Shown piece after piece: positions 14,991-25,712 of a stretch of DNA of 64,000 bases. The position numbers and the translations under genes were made by a program. Every line of letters begins with the position of its first letter. Within the stretch, counting starts at the first letter, position 1. Under the pieces are notes generated by a model that was given only the letters and a program-made list of their open reading frames with translations, was not told the origin of the DNA and did not search any database. The stretch is from positions 108,755-172,754 of the forward strand of contig NZ_JAAFZU010000023.1 of NCBI RefSeq assembly GCF_018263905.1, written 5' to 3'. Origin of the DNA: Loktanella sp. SALINAS62. GTDB taxonomy: Bacteria; Pseudomonadota; Alphaproteobacteria; Rhodobacterales; Rhodobacteraceae.

Positions 14991-17900
14991 ATGAATGATA
15001 CGTTCGAATTTCCGCTGACATCTGCTGACACCCCCGTGATCGTTGGGATCGGTGCGTCCGCAGGCGGGCTGGAAGCATTGCAAAAGTTCCTGGATTATCT
15101 GCCATTCGACAACAGCCTTGCCATTGTCATTGTGCAGCATCTGGACCCAGATCACGACAGCCTGCTGGGTGAACTTTTGACCAAGCGGACAAAAACACCG
15201 GTCTTCGAAGCCGTGGACGGCATGCAGATCAAGCCAAGCCATATTTATCTGATTGCACCCGGTCAGTCGCTGACTGTCATGAACGGGCAGCTCAAATCAG
15301 AAGATTTTCACCTGCCGCGTGGACGACGGCGTCCGATCGACTGTTTTCTGACGTCGCTTGCGGAACACTCTGGCGAACGGGCGGTCGGGATCATTCTGTC
15401 AGGGACGGGCAGCGATGGCAGTCTTGGCGCACGTGCGATAAAGGCTGCGGGTGGGCTGGTGTTCGTTCAGGCCGTATCAGAAGCAAAATACGACGGCATG
15501 CCACGTAGCGCGATCGAAACAGGGGTTGCAGACATCGTTTTGCCGGTCGCAGAAATGTTCCCGGTGCTAAACGACTACTTTGACTGTCGCGGGGGTATTC
15601 AGGAAGACGCGCTGACAGATCGAGAATTCATCGACCGCGCCATGCGCCATGTGCGATACCGCACGGGGCACGATTTTGCGGGCTACAAACCCGGCACCCT
15701 GCTGCGCAGGGTTGCGGTGCGCATGTCCGTACTGGGGCAAATCGAACCGGGCGAATACCTGAAGGTGCTAATCAATGATCCAGAAGAGGTGAAGCGCCTG
15801 TTCAAGGATGTGCTGATCAACGTCACCAGCTTTTTCCGTGACGATGCCGTGTTCGAAGAATTGAGCAACACCATCATTCCCGAATTACTGGAAGGTCGCA
15901 CCAACGCCGACGAATTGCGGATCTGGGTGCCCGGCTGTTCATCGGGCCAAGAAGCATACAGCATCGCCATCCTGATTTCCGAAACGATGGAGCGGCTTGA
16001 TGTCTGGCCGCGCGTTCTGATCTTTGGCACCGACATCGACGAGGACGCGCTGGAAATGGCGCGGCGTGGCCAATATCTGAACACCGTTGCGGATGAGATT
16101 CCCACCGAATACCTGCATAAGTATTTCAAGTGGCGAAGCGATGGCTACACGGTCAACGACCGTCTGCGCGCGATGGTCCGGTTTTCCAACCAAAGCATCA
16201 TCAAGGACCCGCCATTCAGCCAAATCGATTTGGTGACCTGCCGTAACGTTTTGATTTACTTTGATAAGGTATTGCAGGAAAAAGCAATCCGCGTGTTCCA
16301 CTATGGCCTGCGCGAAGGCGGGATACTGGTGCTGGGCACGTCCGAATCCCCGATTTCCGCAGGAGATATGTTCAAGGACGTGTCACGCACGAACAGGATC
16401 TACCGCCGGTTGCCCGGCCCGGCCCGGCGTCTGGATCTGGTCAGCGGCAGCGCCGAACACGACGAACCACAGCCACCACAGTCGACGCCCTTGGCTGCCC
16501 GGGATGTTGCGCAAGCCAACATCCATTCCGATAAGGTCATCGACCTGATCGCGCCCGCCTATTTTGTGCTGGGCAATGCGCGCGATCTGCAATTTGCATC
16601 TGATGCCGCTGCTGGATTTCTTAAAATCAAGGGTGGCCGCCCGCAGCTCGACCTGCTCAAGCTGATCCGCCCAGAGTTGGAAAAATACCTGCGGCGCTTG
16701 TTGAACCGGAACCTGGAAACCGGCGAAACGTCGACCTATGCGTTCCGTGGCACCCTGGACGACGTTCCCCGCAACATCACGATCACCCGGCAGCGATTGC
16801 CCAATGCGCAGGATCTGTTGCTGTTTCAGGATCAAGCGTTACCGGATCAGGGCCAATCGCCGTCGTCCGAAAGCGTTTCAGACGCGACCGCACGCTATAT
16901 CACAGAGCTGGAAGGCGATCTGGACGAAGCGCGCGATCAGATCCGTTCGACGGTCGAGGAACTGGAAACCTCGAACGAAGAGCTGAAAAGCTCGAACGAA
17001 GAAATGATGTCGATGAACGAAGAGTTGCAGTCCGCAAACGAGGAGCTGACAACCACGAACGACGAACTGAACAACAAGATAACCGAGGTGCGCGACGCCA
17101 ACACCGATCTGGCGAATTTTATCCGCAGCACAAAGATCGGCACCGTGTTTCTGGACCCGGACCTGCGACTGCGCAACTACACGCCCGAAGCGACCGAAGT
17201 TTTCCGGTTTCAGGAAAGCGATGTCGGTCGCCGCATCGACGATATTGGGTCAGATCTGGACATGGAAAGCCTTGTCGCGGATTGCCAAAGCGTCATGGAA
17301 AGCCAAAGCCTGCTGGAAAAAGAATACGACACGCGCCGCGACAGAAGCTATCGCGCGCGCTTCGTACCCTATGCACAAAGTGGCCATTCTAGGGGCGGCG
17401 TTGTCGTATCCCTGTTTGAAGTGACAGAATTGCGCAAACTGGCCGAAGACACCGAACAGGCGCGTAAAGTCGCGGCCCACAGGCTTGAAGAAATCGAAGA
17501 GCTCTACTCTGCCAGCCCGCAAGCCATGGCGCTTTTGGATACAAATCTGCGCTATGTCCGCGCAAACACGCGTTTGTCCGAAATATTGGGTGTCCCGGTC
17601 GACGACATGATCGGTGCGTCATTGGGCGAAATGTCAGGTGGGATGGCTGAAAAAGCCCGATCGTTGGCAAAAGAGGTACTGCTGACCCAACAAAAGATCG
17701 AAAATTACCAGATGCAGGGCGCCCTCCCAGTATCACCGGGCAATGAACGGGTGTTTCAGACAGACTGGTATCCTGTCTTTCAGGACGGCGAGCTTGTCGG
17801 TGTTGGCATTAACGTACGCGACACCACTGAAATGGTACAAATGCAGTTCGAACTGCGCCGTATCATGCAAGAGTTGCAGCACCGCGTTAAAAACATGCTG

Positions 17901-18479
17901 GCAAACGTGCTGGCGCTGGTGTCTCGCGCGCGGCGCGATGCAACGGCCGACGCGCAGATTTTCGCAGCGCTGTCACAGCGGATTCAGGCACTGGCGCAAA
18001 CGCACAAGCTGCTGACGCAGTCGAATTGGGCGTCCGCCAAACTTCAAGACGTGCTGCGACCGGAACTGGTTGATGTCTACGGTGCTGAACGTGTCCAGCT
18101 AAAGGGCCCGGATATCACCGTCAACGCGCGCGCCGCTCTGTCACTGGGAATGGCGATTCACGAACTGGCTACGAATGCGGCGAAATACGGCAGCTTTTCC
18201 GTCGAAGACGGACAGGTATCGCTGTCATGGGTGCGTCAGGACGACGGCGAATCCGACGACTATATTTTCAACTGGCAAGAACGGTTTGGCCCCTCTGCGG
18301 CAGAAAGCGAAACCGCTGGTTTCGGCAGCCAATTGATCAAATCCACCATCGAAGGCAGCCTTGACGGCCAGGTGGAGTTTTACTGGGAACAAACCGGCTT
18401 GCGGTGCGTTTTCATCATTCCGAAAGATTCATTAATAGAGATCCCGCATGACTCAGTCTTCGACACCCTTACGTCCTAA
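14991..18479 (+). CDS. CheB-CheR-PAS-HWE histidine kinase hybrid
   Basis: Multidomain signalling protein of 1162 residues. In order: CheB methylesterase (about 15-200, active Ser23 in GIGASAGG), CheR methyltransferase (about 210-480, GCSSGQEAYSIA and LVTCRNVLIYF), a coiled coil of repeated EELxSxNEE units (about 640-700), two PAS regions (about 705-810 and 830-950) and an HWE kinase with phosphoacceptor His964 in ELQHRVKN and the N-box HELATNAAKYG. No membrane segment, so cytosolic. The response regulator gene overlaps its end by 32 bases. It is divergent from the LOV gene with a 71-base shared promoter region, which suggests shared light or stress control. Confidence 0.93.
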   Translation: MNDTFEFPLTSADTPVIVGIGASAGGLEALQKFLDYLPFDNSLAIVIVQHLDPDHDSLLGELLTKRTKTPVFEAVDGMQIKPSHIYLIAPGQSLTVMNGQLKSEDFHLPRGRRRPIDCFLTSLAEHSGERAVGIILSGTGSDGSLGARAIKAAGGLVFVQAVSEAKYDGMPRSAIETGVADIVLPVAEMFPVLNDYFDCRGGIQEDALTDREFIDRAMRHVRYRTGHDFAGYKPGTLLRRVAVRMSVLGQIEPGEYLKVLINDPEEVKRLFKDVLINVTSFFRDDAVFEELSNTIIPELLEGRTNADELRIWVPGCSSGQEAYSIAILISETMERLDVWPRVLIFGTDIDEDALEMARRGQYLNTVADEIPTEYLHKYFKWRSDGYTVNDRLRAMVRFSNQSIIKDPPFSQIDLVTCRNVLIYFDKVLQEKAIRVFHYGLREGGILVLGTSESPISAGDMFKDVSRTNRIYRRLPGPARRLDLVSGSAEHDEPQPPQSTPLAARDVAQANIHSDKVIDLIAPAYFVLGNARDLQFASDAAAGFLKIKGGRPQLDLLKLIRPELEKYLRRLLNRNLETGETSTYAFRGTLDDVPRNITITRQRLPNAQDLLLFQDQALPDQGQSPSSESVSDATARYITELEGDLDEARDQIRSTVEELETSNEELKSSNEEMMSMNEELQSANEELTTTNDELNNKITEVRDANTDLANFIRSTKIGTVFLDPDLRLRNYTPEATEVFRFQESDVGRRIDDIGSDLDMESLVADCQSVMESQSLLEKEYDTRRDRSYRARFVPYAQSGHSRGGVVVSLFEVTELRKLAEDTEQARKVAAHRLEEIEELYSASPQAMALLDTNLRYVRANTRLSEILGVPVDDMIGASLGEMSGGMAEKARSLAKEVLLTQQKIENYQMQGALPVSPGNERVFQTDWYPVFQDGELVGVGINVRDTTEMVQMQFELRRIMQELQHRVKNMLANVLALVSRARRDATADAQIFAALSQRIQALAQTHKLLTQSNWASAKLQDVLRPELVDVYGAERVQLKGPDITVNARAALSLGMAIHELATNAAKYGSFSVEDGQVSLSWVRQDDGESDDYIFNWQERFGPSAAESETAGFGSQLIKSTIEGSLDGQVEFYWEQTGLRCVFIIPKDSLIEIPHDSVFDTLTS

Positions 18480-18947: not shown

Positions 18948-21050
18948 ATGAAACTTGATCCAGACCAGAACGCTGAATTCGAAGCGCGGCAGCAACTTGA
19001 TCGACGCGGCGTACTGACCGCGCTCTATAGTATGAGCCCGTCTTGGGTGATTGTTGCCGATGGCAGAACCCACCGGATTATTGCTGCAAATCCGGCAGCT
19101 TTGGCAAACACCGGCTATCGCCTACGACAGCTTCGCAAATTGCGGCTGGATAACGTATTGTCCAGTATGTCCACAGATCGGGTCAACCGTCTGCTGACCG
19201 CTGTCAAACGGCGGCGACCGGGACGTGTAACCCGGCTGCGAATGCATGGTCGTGACGCGCGTTCATTGTGCGTTCGGATCATATACCTTGGCCATCGACT
19301 CCCAACGTTTGTGGTGGTGGTCAGCGATCATACCGCGCATGTTCAGGCCCAGACCCGTGCAGATGAAGCACAGGCGCAACTGATGACTGCGATAAACGCG
19401 CTGTCGGATGGGTTCGTTCTGTACGACCAGCACGATCGCATGGTCATCTGCAACGAACCCTACAAATCGCTATATGCCAAAAGCGCATATCGCATGGTGC
19501 CGGGGACCAGATTCCGCGACATCCTGCAAGCCGGACTTGATAAGGGCGAATACCTGGATGCCATCGGCAGAGAAGTCGATTGGCTGAACGAGCGGTTGGC
19601 CGATCATTCTCGTAACAACAGCATCGTCGAACAGCGCCTGTCCAACGGACGCTGGCTGCGGATCGAGGAACGGATGACGTCCGACGGCGGCCGCGTTGGC
19701 CTGCGTGTGGATATCACCGACCTGAAGAATCAGCAGGAAAAACTGCATCGCATGATGCTGACCGATGAACTGACCGGGCTGCGCAACCGTCGTAATCTGC
19801 TGAACGACCTTTTGGCCTGGGGGGATTCGCTACCGCCGCAACAGGGGCTGGCGGTCTACCATCTGGATGTCGAACGCTTCAAACAGATCAACAGCGTTTA
19901 TGGCTATGATATTGGTGACAGGCTGCTGCGTCATATCGCCGACACGTTGCGGGCCGCCGCCGGGCCGCATGGGCTGACAGCAAGGGTTGGCGGCAATGAA
20001 TTCATCGTGGCAAAAAAAATAGATATCGCCGCAGTCGACATCGTGGATTTTGCAGAAACACTTTGCAAATGGACGTCCGGGCCCGTGTCGATTGATGGCC
20101 AACAGATTGCATGCTGTGTTTCTGCCGGGATTGCCGTGCTTGACCCGGCCACTTGCCGCGACGGTGACGGATCGGTCCTGGCCGCTGCGGAAATGGCGCT
20201 CGCAGAAGCCAAACAATTGGGTCGGTCCGTGCAGCTGTTTCAACCAACGATGCAGGTTCGGGCCGTCAATGATGGTGACCTAACACGCGATTTGCAGCGC
20301 GCTGTTGAATGCAACGAATTTGAGGCATTCTTTCAACCGCAGGTCGATGCCATCGCGCAACGCTGCATCGGGTTCGAAGCGTTGCTGCGCTGGGTTCATC
20401 CTGAACGGGGAATCCTGCCTGCCGGTGCTTTCCTGGCAATCGCGCAACGTGCAGGCCTGACGGAAACCCTGGATGATCTGGTTCTTGACCGTGCCTGCCG
20501 TGCTCTGACATTTCTGGACAGCATCGGTCGATCCGACCTGACAGTCAGCGTCAATCTTTCGGCCAATCAGGTCGCCGACACGCGCCTGCTGTCGCGCCTT
20601 TTGGCGACACTGCGCAGACACGATGTCGCGCGGCATCGGATCAGGCTTGAATTACTGGAATCCACCTTGCTGGATGAACGCACGTCGCACTACATCGCAA
20701 ACATTGAAAAGCTGGTGCAGGCAGGCTTTGTCATGGAACTCGACGACTTTGGCACTGGTCATGCCGCGATTGCGACGCTGCGCAAATTCAAGGTGTCGCA
20801 GATCAAGATTGATCGCAGCTTTGTCCAGAACGTGGATCATGATCCAGAACTGCAAGAATTGACCGGGGCGATCATCAGTCTGGCGCAGCGGTTGGGTATC
20901 TGCATTCTGGCAGAAGGGGTGGAAACCGCCGCAGAACAGGCGTGTCTGGTCAGCATGGGGTGTTCACGGGCACAGGGATGGTTTTACGACAAGGCCCTCC
21001 CCCTGTCCAAACTTCCTGATTTCCTACGTATCTTTGAAGCCAGTGTTTAA
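18948..21050 (+). CDS. PAS-GGDEF-EAL cyclic-di-GMP protein with degenerate GGDEF
   Basis: Protein of 700 residues: PAS (about 25-120), a second PAS (about 140-255), GGDEF-like (about 265-430) and EAL (about 440-690). The cyclase signature reads GGNEF at 348-352, so the catalytic Asp/Glu is Asn; cyclase activity is doubtful and the domain may only bind GTP. The EAL domain keeps EALLRW (Glu477), NLSANQ, ELLES, DDFGTG, KIDRSF and EGVET, so phosphodiesterase activity is likely. It follows the response regulator after 125 bases, in which I see no terminator, and overlaps the convergent LacI gene by 27 bases. Confidence 0.92.
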   Translation: MKLDPDQNAEFEARQQLDRRGVLTALYSMSPSWVIVADGRTHRIIAANPAALANTGYRLRQLRKLRLDNVLSSMSTDRVNRLLTAVKRRRPGRVTRLRMHGRDARSLCVRIIYLGHRLPTFVVVVSDHTAHVQAQTRADEAQAQLMTAINALSDGFVLYDQHDRMVICNEPYKSLYAKSAYRMVPGTRFRDILQAGLDKGEYLDAIGREVDWLNERLADHSRNNSIVEQRLSNGRWLRIEERMTSDGGRVGLRVDITDLKNQQEKLHRMMLTDELTGLRNRRNLLNDLLAWGDSLPPQQGLAVYHLDVERFKQINSVYGYDIGDRLLRHIADTLRAAAGPHGLTARVGGNEFIVAKKIDIAAVDIVDFAETLCKWTSGPVSIDGQQIACCVSAGIAVLDPATCRDGDGSVLAAAEMALAEAKQLGRSVQLFQPTMQVRAVNDGDLTRDLQRAVECNEFEAFFQPQVDAIAQRCIGFEALLRWVHPERGILPAGAFLAIAQRAGLTETLDDLVLDRACRALTFLDSIGRSDLTVSVNLSANQVADTRLLSRLLATLRRHDVARHRIRLELLESTLLDERTSHYIANIEKLVQAGFVMELDDFGTGHAAIATLRKFKVSQIKIDRSFVQNVDHDPELQELTGAIISLAQRLGICILAEGVETAAEQACLVSMGCSRAQGWFYDKALPLSKLPDFLRIFEASV

Positions 21051-22185: not shown

Positions 22186-22262
22186 GGCCCCGTGGCTCAA
22201 CTGGATAGAGCAGCCCCCTCCTAAGGGGCAGGTTGCAGGTTCGAACCCTGCCGGGGTCACCA
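22186..22262 (+). tRNA. tRNA-Arg (anticodon CCT)
   Basis: Cloverleaf read by eye: acceptor GGCCCCG pairing with CGGGGTC, D arm GCTC/GAGC, anticodon stem GCCCC/GGGGC with loop CTCCTAA giving anticodon CCT (reads AGG), T arm GCAGG-TTCGAAC-CCTGC, discriminator A and an encoded CCA end. Its 3' end abuts the stop of the convergent winged-helix gene. No integrase or duplicated 3' end is seen nearby. Confidence 0.95.
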
Positions 22263-22961
22263 TCAGACCATGCGGATGACGTCCTTGTCGATCGCCAGCA
22301 TGTATCCCTTGCGGGCGATGTTCTTGACCAGCAGCTCACTGACCATCTGGTTACCCAGGGTGTCGCGCAGCCGCTTGATCCGCGTTGCACCTGCTGCCTC
22401 TTCACAGTCCGAAGCATCCCGACCGGAAATCACGCCTTCGATTTCGGCACCTGAGAGCACCTCGTCGTCCATCCGCGCTTCGGCCAGGACCGACAGGGTT
22501 TCAATCGCGGCCTCGGTCAGCTTGAATTCAAAGTTGTTCAGGTAGACAGAACCTTGGTCACGGCTGATCAGTAGGGAATTCACCTCGATCCCCTTGCGTT
22601 CGATCCGCCCCATCCGGCGCGTCAGGCCGATCAGCATGACCAGAAAAGCGATAGCCGCCACCAAAAGGGCCGTCGAAAACACCAACAGGACAAAGATCAC
22701 AAAACGATAGGACGACAGCGTATCGCTGAACGCCGTCCCGGATTGTGCGATGATTTCCAGCAACTTGATTTCGGCATTGCCGGTCAGCGTATCATTTTCA
22801 ATGAACAATTGTTCAACACGCGCATTGAACGCGTTCGCGTCCGGCAGGTTCACGAACAGCAGAACCGCCGCGCCCGCAAGGATCGCGACGATGGCGATGA
22901 TGCCACCCATGACGATTCGATTGCCGATCTCGCGCCCTTCAGTAGCGGAGGAAATATTCAC
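22263..22961 (-). CDS. Membrane-anchored winged-helix regulator with C-terminal DNA-binding domain
   Basis: Protein of 232 residues from the GTG at 22961 (AGGA seven bases upstream). Two membrane segments (about 17-38 and 86-113) enclose a 47-residue periplasmic part; the second is followed by RRMGRIERKG, placing the remainder in the cytoplasm. Residues about 140-228 resemble an OmpR/PhoB-type winged helix, ending in LVKNIARKGYMLA, similar to the wing of that family. ToxR/CadC proteins have the reverse order. The gene overlaps the preceding small secreted-protein gene by 23 bases. DNA binding is inferred; a winged-helix protein-interaction role is possible. Confidence 0.7.
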   Translation of the reverse strand: MNISSATEGREIGNRIVMGGIIAIVAILAGAAVLLFVNLPDANAFNARVEQLFIENDTLTGNAEIKLLEIIAQSGTAFSDTLSSYRFVIFVLLVFSTALLVAAIAFLVMLIGLTRRMGRIERKGIEVNSLLISRDQGSVYLNNFEFKLTEAAIETLSVLAEARMDDEVLSGAEIEGVISGRDASDCEEAAGATRIKRLRDTLGNQMVSELLVKNIARKGYMLAIDKDVIRMV

Positions 22962-23220
22962 CGGCGCTGTCCTTTCTGCTGTCCAGACCCGAATCATCAA
23001 AGGTGCCAACCACAGTCAACAGTTCCCAGCCATCGGATTGAAGCTTTGGCCGTAGTTGGGCCGCAGCGGATTCCGTGGTGCAAGGTCCTTCGATCTCGGC
23101 AACCCCATAATGCAAGCGCAAGGGGCCGTCACGCTTTGCCTTGTAGTCGGCAAAGCACGCGGCCTGCGCCGCATTGGCGGTCACAAACAGGACAAGAAGC
23201 AGAGAGATAAAATGTTTCAT
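22939..23220 (-). CDS. Small secreted protein of unknown function
   Basis: 93-residue protein with a signal peptide (MKHFISLLLVLFVTANAAQA, cleavage near residue 20). The mature part is about 73 residues with two cysteines (CFADYKAK and GPCTTES) that could form a disulphide. I do not recognise the family. Its gene overlaps the membrane winged-helix gene by 23 bases, so the two are co-translated, and it may be a periplasmic ligand or cofactor of that regulator. Confidence 0.65.
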   Translation of the reverse strand: MKHFISLLLVLFVTANAAQAACFADYKAKRDGPLRLHYGVAEIEGPCTTESAAAQLRPKLQSDGWELLTVVGTFDDSGLDSRKDSAGEYFLRY

Positions 23221-23404
23221 GCCGCCACCCCACCTCTTGTCACGATGTTATGCAATATCCTGCGATGCTACCCCCGGGATCCGGCCAACACCAGAGCGTG
23301 TTATTGCCTGACACGGGGCCGCAGCGTTTGGTTTTGCAAGATGCCCGGCGATCGGTGCCAGGGCACGGGGGAACGCCATCCCCCTTCATCCAAGAGGTCG
23401 ACAT

Positions 23405-23830
23405 ATGCCAAAGATATTTCTTGCGATAGCCGCAGCACTGACACTCGCGCTGCCACAAGCGGCACACGCTGAACTTGATCAGGACAAAACGCTGGCGCGC
23501 GTCGCCGTAGGTGTTGTTGCCGCACTTGTTCTGACGCAGCTTTTATCAAGCGATGATGACGACACGGCGACGGAACGCGGCGGGCTGCGCGATTCAAATG
23601 AACCACCCGTCGTCACCCAAAAGGGCGCGGTCATTGGTGATGATTGGCAAGGCACAGCACTGCCGTCAGTTTGTGCCCGCGGGGCTGAACATTATGACAG
23701 CGCATGCCTGCAAGACCGGCTTCCTGTCACGGCACCGTTGCCGAAATTATGCGAACAACGCGGGATTTATCAAAACAGGGTCATCGACCTGTATCATGCC
23801 GGATGCCTGCGGGCGGCAGGCTATCGTTAG
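23405..23830 (+). CDS. Hypothetical secreted or membrane-anchored protein with Asp run
   Basis: 141-residue protein: signal peptide ending AAHA (about residue 22), a hydrophobic stretch VAVGVVAALVLTQLL (about 33-50), then SSDDDD, then a Cys-containing domain with four cysteines (SVCARG, SACLQD, KLCEQR, AGCLRA). I do not recognise it. The leader contains a 6-bp hairpin GGGGGA/TCCCCC (23367-23384) just before the AAGAGG ribosome site. It is followed by rnhB 38 bases on. Confidence 0.6.
   Translation: MPKIFLAIAAALTLALPQAAHAELDQDKTLARVAVGVVAALVLTQLLSSDDDDTATERGGLRDSNEPPVVTQKGAVIGDDWQGTALPSVCARGAEHYDSACLQDRLPVTAPLPKLCEQRGIYQNRVIDLYHAGCLRAAGYR

Positions 23831-24530: not shown

Positions 24531-25712
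<1,182 letters not shown>

Follow-up and report, generated by a model that had tools for sequence, protein, structure and literature searches.

A predicted transmembrane winged-helix regulator of inverted topology, its co-inherited secreted neighbour and a putative envelope regulon in Rhodobacteraceae

Introduction

In the 64,000-nt stretch of the Loktanella sp. SALINAS62 genome analysed here (the window), a membrane protein with a DNA-binding-like domain behind its two membrane spans (gene A) is encoded in a frame that overlaps the gene of a small secreted protein (gene B). This raises the question of whether the two proteins form a sensor and, if so, what it controls. Full-text literature searches, judged by their listings and covering few subscription journals, brought up no paper on the A–B gene pair. 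The features of the locus are:

22263..22961, minus strand: gene A, predicted 232-residue membrane-anchored OmpR-type winged-helix regulator with a GTG start (from the ORF, locus comparison, Pfam and a model)
Within gene A: TM1, residues ~21–39; periplasmic loop, ~40–85; TM2, ~87–105; winged helix, 127–232 (from hydropathy and the model)
22939..23220, minus strand: gene B, 93-residue secreted protein with two invariant Cys and a predicted beta-beta-alpha-beta-alpha mature domain
22939..22961, minus strand: 23-nt overlap of the B 3' end and the A 5' end
23245..23310, minus strand: putative operator array 5' of B (match to sequence model R1, E 2.5e-9, this promoter being one of the 53 training rows of the model)
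23247..23259, minus strand: O3 palindrome, GATATTGCATAAC in minus-strand reading
23300..23306, minus strand: O1 half-site CAATAAC, 53 nt from the O3 half-site
23405..23830, plus strand: gene C, divergent, fast-evolving 141-residue secreted protein with a hydrophobic segment and four invariant Cys

The order in the window is thus A–B, array, divergent C, then rnhB and ccrM, the latter a ccrM-like DNA methyltransferase gene at 24549–25712 (+). At the other end of the locus a tRNA-Arg (CCT) gene at 22186–22262 (+) ends one base before the A stop codon on the opposite strand; this tRNA is present in 9 of 29 other loci scanned and abuts A in none. Two large sensory genes precede the A–B locus, both recognised by eye only: a CheB/CheR/histidine-kinase-like fusion at 14991–18479 and a GGDEF-EAL protein at 18948–21050.

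Results

A carries an OmpR-type winged helix behind two membrane spans

Gene A had been drawn as a 248-residue ORF starting from a TTG at 23009. The ORF itself is real, and its start and length needed correction. Across 80 loci the frame 5' of codon 17 is poorly conserved, with stop codons in several of them, and a conserved GAAAGGA-like stretch is followed in most loci by GTG, which occupies either of two positions separated by two codons. The equivalent start codon is GTG in 157 of 163 loci and ATG in 6 (several of these loci are repeats of one genome). We therefore assign A to 22961–22263, the GTG at 22961 giving a protein of 232 residues. The overlap with B that the first-pass annotation had pointed out is a general feature: A and B overlap in 160 of the 163 loci (by 23 nt in 108, including the window, by 29 nt in 51 and by 32 nt in one) and do not in the other three. 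One further locus, L158 (the 164th), has 3.8 kb of other genes between A and B.

The same annotation had placed the DNA-binding-like domain after two membrane spans, in the reverse of the order in ToxR and CadC, and this reversal is real: hydropathy peaks at residues 21–39 and 87–105 precede a winged helix at 127–232. The mean number of Lys and Arg residues in 43 A sequences is 2.2 for the N-tail, 2.5 for the loop and 3.6 for the 14 residues after TM2, with a mean of 7.4 Asp and Glu in the loop. Together with the two spans, the distribution of Lys and Arg predicts that both termini, and hence the winged helix, are cytoplasmic. Conservation over 43 diverse members is 0.56 in the N-tail, 0.65 in TM1, 0.84 in the loop, 0.77 in TM2, 0.81 in the linker and 0.84 in the winged helix. 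The loop is therefore conserved as strongly as the winged helix, as expected if it contacts another protein.

Pfam PF00486 (Trans_reg_C) matches the A protein of the window with E 0.0025, below the curated cut-off, and matches all 43 A relatives (best 1.4e-6). The presumed recognition helix, A189–R199, is invariant or nearly invariant. Beside it a nearly invariant cytoplasmic Cys at residue 186 (window ~22404–22406) is a possible redox point. A model predicted from a 43-row alignment is of middling confidence (pLDDT 77, pTM 0.48) and has a single helix from residue 62 to 123, running from the loop through TM2 into the linker. Foldseek matches of this model include BaeR, RpaA, ToxR, CadC and YycF, with E<=0.001 for BaeR only. 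When compared with VIA, all 50 matches shown were OmpR-family DNA-binding domains (Z 9.7–11.9 over 85–98 residues, one of them at high rmsd), RpaA being the best (Z 11.9), with CadC at 10.8 and ToxR at 10.2. Structure prediction thus agrees with the winged helix proposed from the letters of the sequence, and assigns it to the OmpR/PhoB type.

B is a small secreted protein inherited together with A

B is, as first described, a secreted protein of 93 residues with two Cys: a signal peptide can be recognised by eye, and C22 and C47 are invariant columns among 48 aligned members. Its mature part was modelled as beta-beta-alpha-beta-alpha with pLDDT 94–98 in blocks of ten. Foldseek gave no match to this model at E<=0.001, a PDB sequence search with B gave no clear relative, and the best VIA Z of 6.0 was tied with unrelated entries; a missing match is not evidence for a new fold. 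Assignment to DUF4177, a suspected resemblance, was rejected: there is no such Pfam match, and the predicted strand order was judged different. B evolves faster than A, with a mean column identity of 50% vs 78%; the divergent A members aligned are 58–88% identical to the window protein.

As first loci we took the best 80 of 526 A-encoding stretches, which come from members of the Rhodobacteraceae, Paracoccaceae or Rhodobacterales or from uncultured alphaproteobacteria. B adjoins A on the same strand in 80 of 80, so the pairing is not due to chance. Among 292 genomes of the order, all of one family, 257 carry both genes and 35 carry neither, in line with the co-conservation that a functional pair had been proposed to show. 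B was matched at E<=0.01 in 258 of these 292 genomes, the sole disagreement with the A list being G163 (B E 0.0012); the B profile, applied to 8 of the 35 genomes without A, found nothing in G163 and gave a single match, of 37 residues in G006 (E 0.03). Twelve of 20 A-less genomes listed fall in genus g7 and the rest in g24, g41, g46, g57, g58, g68, g75 and g88. G075 is the one listed g24 genome that lacks A and B, which makes at least one loss of the pair a recent event. A profile of the N-terminal part of A and that of B were also run across the class: each matched 5 of 337 genomes, none of them from another family, and the 332 class genomes outside the family gave no match to either. A single-sequence search of the class found 6 of 385 genomes, the sixth at E 9.9e-4 and in the winged helix only.

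Gene C accompanies the pair beside rnhB and ccrM

C is conserved at only 34% mean column identity, and all 15 aligned members share its four Cys. With a crude filter, C candidates came up in 86 of 162 loci, one or more of them evidently spurious; a C profile matched beside B in all 12 genomes with A (A+) that were searched. In 20 genomes lacking A (A-) the profile search found no full-length C; weak partial matches to its N-terminal half were seen in three A- genomes (G075, G141 and G188).

The best 80 loci contain rnhB in 78 and ccrM in 77 cases, and both are present in 20 of 20 diverse loci. In 19 of the 20 A- loci (G168 left out) rnhB and ccrM are present and A, B, C and the palindrome described below were not found; 18 of these are informative, the contig of L270 ending 369 bases beyond rnhB. 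The rnhB–ccrM order beside the A–B–C module is thus kept across the family, also where the module has been lost. A cell-cycle reading based on the ccrM neighbour was rejected, since all 20 A-less genomes tested keep ccrM; the link is positional.

A phased palindromic array lies between B and C

The region between C and B contains an array of half-sites around the palindrome GTTATTGAATAAC. Its parts are O1, an AATAWC half-site; O2, a second palindrome that is often degenerate, as in the window; and O3, GWTATTGAATAWC. The word ATTCAATA/TATTGAAT occurs 5' of B in 130 of 163 loci, a redundant set, vs 0.8 in shuffles, and GWTAT-N3-ATAWC in 71 of 98 non-redundant B promoters (shuffles: mean 0.045, maximum 1). 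In the 74 promoters with O3, forward half-sites recur at -53 (51 promoters), -20 (27) and -32 (5) relative to O3 and reverse half-sites at -39 (32); for each orientation these spacings are close to whole turns of B-DNA. In 69 of the 74, O3 begins 39–43 nt 5' of the B start codon, a position that makes autorepression likely.

A sequence model (R1) was built from 53 of 72 eligible promoters, all picked for containing O3, so the invariance of O3 among them is partly due to selection. We searched it with stricter filters against 80 hand-picked genomes, 60 A+ of many genera and 20 A-. At E<=0.01 the array was found in 51 of the 60 A+ genomes and in none of the 20 A- genomes (Fisher p 3e-12), some of the A+ promoters being training rows of the model. 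The best match in an A- genome had E 0.0205; nine A+ genomes were without an array at E<=0.01, three of them without any match. Wherever coordinates were compared, the best match lay at the B promoter. In L158, B and C keep a long array, and the separated A has its own O1–O2 at its 5' side, which R1 also matches (G133:C1:3385921, E 0.0144). Inheritance of the array with A, the failure to find it in the A- genomes and its presence at the separated A's own promoter are most simply explained if A itself binds the palindrome. The published CenR motif, TGA-N8-TGA, shows a mild over-representation in B promoters (16 of 98, 5.2 expected); CenR was rejected as the owner of the palindrome, which is present in 71 of the 98.

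Single palindromes recur in front of secreted-protein genes

A search of the forward strand in 61 genomes of the family gave 38 exact copies of the palindrome, vs 2 for a reversed control. Among 20 such places inspected, five were a whole array of the B-promoter type, one was a DUF5333 promoter (L225), three were one coding stretch in a dehydrogenase-like gene, and the rest had no shared target. L210, L213 and L221 were rejected as targets, being a recurring coding coincidence in the dehydrogenase-like gene.

Among the R1 matches listed, 75 further A+ sites lie away from the B–A locus (duplicates and B or A promoters, L343 among them, were dropped, and G089:C1:380885 was left out); for comparison we took all 12 sites listed in A- genomes. 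An ORF with a secretion signal lies within 115 nt of 27 of the 75 A+ sites, compared with 128 of 1443 random positions in the same loci (Fisher p 5e-10) and 0 of the 12 A- sites (p 0.008). At least 4 of the 27 are probably false, being located within or next to unrelated genes. The other 48 are without such an ORF at this distance, and of those inspected many are intragenic; sites inside DctQ, transporter-permease and malate-dehydrogenase-like genes were rejected as targets.

Eleven of the 75 sites lie 5' of DUF5333 genes, and two more from pattern searches extend the set to 13 genomes. All 13 downstream proteins belong to Pfam DUF5333, and in all 13 promoters the motif has the same orientation, with the central G on the sense strand, 58–97 nt before the start. 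The window's own genome has such a gene (L349, 1060–1449, minus strand) with a promoter site (G000:C3:85499) one mismatch from the pattern; it carries GATATTGCATAGC, the same core variant as O3 of the window. This variant, TTGCATA, stands in both O3 and the DUF5333 promoter of the window's genome, and again in both sites of its congener G144; in G207 the two sites do not match in this way. DUF5333 was found in no paper of the full-text literature searched, most subscription journals being outside its reach.

OmpA-domain glycine-zipper lipoproteins lie downstream of sites in three genomes (G010, G151 and G283). All other putative targets were seen once each: TolB, LolA, an M15_2 peptidase, a PG_binding_1 protein and a DUF2799 lipoprotein, and, in the window's own genome, an M48 membrane peptidase behind a weak site (E 0.345) and a lytic transglycosylase behind a pattern-search site. 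In one genome a curlin-repeat protein (L335, G133:C1:3296175) has an O1–O2-like half array 5' of its gene. Taken together, the putative targets assign the system to the cell envelope, the compartment that also contains B and the loop of A. Gene C, the array and the likely envelope regulon, none of which figured in the first-pass annotation, suggest a function for the A–B pair.

Discussion

A possible envelope sensor

We lean towards reading A as an inverted-topology transmembrane transcription regulator and B as its probable periplasmic partner, the two controlling their own locus and an envelope regulon. The anatomy of A, the co-inheritance of A and B, the conservation of the array and the recurrence of the palindrome before DUF5333 genes are observed. 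In the mechanism we propose, A would consist of a cytoplasmic N-tail, TM1, a 45-residue periplasmic loop, TM2 and a cytoplasmic OmpR-type winged helix. Secreted B, encoded just 5' in the overlapping frame, would dock on the conserved loop, and its state would be relayed through the long predicted helix 62–123 to the linker. A would bind half-sites of GTTATTGAATAAC on about one face of the DNA, between B–A and the divergent C, and from there control its own operon and C; through single palindromes it would control envelope genes, above all those of the secreted DUF5333 proteins. The signal may be some envelope state, and the sign of regulation is presumably the repression that the position of O3 suggests. 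We infer the binding of B to A from the gene pair; overlapping genes, joint loss and a loop conserved at 84% make B plausible as a sensor subunit, and this is the weakest link of the proposal.

Alternatives

The evidence on B can also be turned the other way. A might be a one-component membrane sensor, with B a co-regulated and co-transcribed effector of the same envelope compartment. The faster evolution of B would fit, as would its staying with C and the array in L158 while A is apart, and the fact that C and the DUF5333 proteins are likewise small secreted Cys proteins. Against this, the co-occurrence (257 both, 35 neither), the overlapping frames and a loop conserved as strongly as the winged helix all favour a partner, and we hold the effector role to be possible but doubtful.

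The palindrome raises a different doubt: OmpR-type domains often bind direct repeats, and an inverted repeat is unusual for them (PMC9275681, in the part available) and counts against our preferred reading. The regulator of A, B, C and DUF5333 could be an unlinked one, for example CenKR or some factor lost in the same lineages, with A serving other targets. CenR controls envelope genes including tolQRAB in one member of the family, according to the available part of PMC9275681, and TolB was found once here; its TGA-N8-TGA motif is also more frequent in B promoters than expected. However, this direct-repeat motif does not describe GTTATTGAATAAC, and CenKR is reported for other alphaproteobacterial orders in that part of the paper, whereas the array was found in none of the 20 A- genomes (a comparison by reported orders). 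The separated A gene in L158, moreover, carries its own partial copy of the array. We consider an unlinked regulator rather improbable. Still further down the scale, and in our view very improbable, the winged helix would serve protein–protein contacts and not bind DNA, with A acting as a structural or scaffolding protein in the membrane. The window A scores under the curated Pfam cut-off, which would allow this; the invariant basic residues of the recognition helix, the structural match to DNA-bound family members and the inheritance of the array together with A argue against it.

If the preferred reading is true, A, present as a single copy in 257 of 292 genomes, would act as an envelope sensor in an abundant group of marine bacteria, and the uncharacterised DUF5333 family would be tied to a regulator and a DNA site.

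Comparison with known systems

OmpR/PhoB response regulators have an N-terminal receiver domain; A has no Pfam receiver match, and its residues 1–126 are modelled as helices and a loop. CenKR of Rhodobacter sphaeroides, the known envelope system of the family, with a motif other than the palindrome (PMC9275681 and PMC10470753, as far as available), resembles A in its OmpR-type output, its envelope targets and its occurrence in the same family. According to the available part of PMC9275681, it differs in consisting of a histidine kinase and a phosphorylated soluble regulator, in its TGA-N8-TGA motif and in its presence in further orders. Table 1 of that paper, which names genes by RSP numbers, has no annotation recognisable as A, B or C.

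With a predicted DNA-binding domain and a transmembrane region in one chain, A falls under the definition of transmembrane transcription regulators (TTRs) in the available part of PMC10269533. Two-span proteins make up 17% of the class there, and a C-terminal DNA-binding domain is known from N. gonorrhoeae Rsp; no description of the A family, its partner, operator or regulon was found in that part of the paper.

A likeness exists to ToxR and CadC, which also tether an OmpR-type winged helix to the inner membrane and combine it with a periplasmic part. They have an N-terminal winged helix, a single TM helix and a C-terminal periplasmic domain, whereas A has its DNA-binding domain at the C-terminus after two spans, a 45-residue periplasmic loop and both termini in the cytoplasm as predicted. 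In VtrA/VtrC, ToxR/ToxS and TcpP/TcpH, a regulator and an exported partner are encoded in one operon, usually by overlapping genes (PMC9214523, available part), and A–B shares with co-component systems such as VtrA/VtrC the two-gene operon of a membrane transcription factor and an exported partner. The two proteins of such a system form an obligate periplasmic heterodimer, as A and B might. Set against the same part of that paper, three differences stand out: the transcription factor gene comes first in co-component systems and the partner gene B comes first here; B is a 93-residue two-Cys protein, for which our searches gave no match to the lipocalin-like fold of the partner in those systems; and A–B is a conserved core pair of a non-enteric family rather than a fast-evolving virulence cassette. 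By analogy, then, A–B may work like the ToxR/ToxS pair, from which it departs in topology and gene order. As a tentative proposal, to which we give slightly less than an even chance, A–B would be an independent, inverted-topology counterpart of ToxR/ToxS that arose within the Rhodobacteraceae, with a helically phased palindromic operator and an envelope-homeostasis regulon of DUF5333 proteins, OmpA-type lipoproteins, Tol and lipoprotein-export parts and peptidoglycan enzymes. It would then represent a second way in which an OmpR-type domain is anchored in the membrane and joined by an exported partner.
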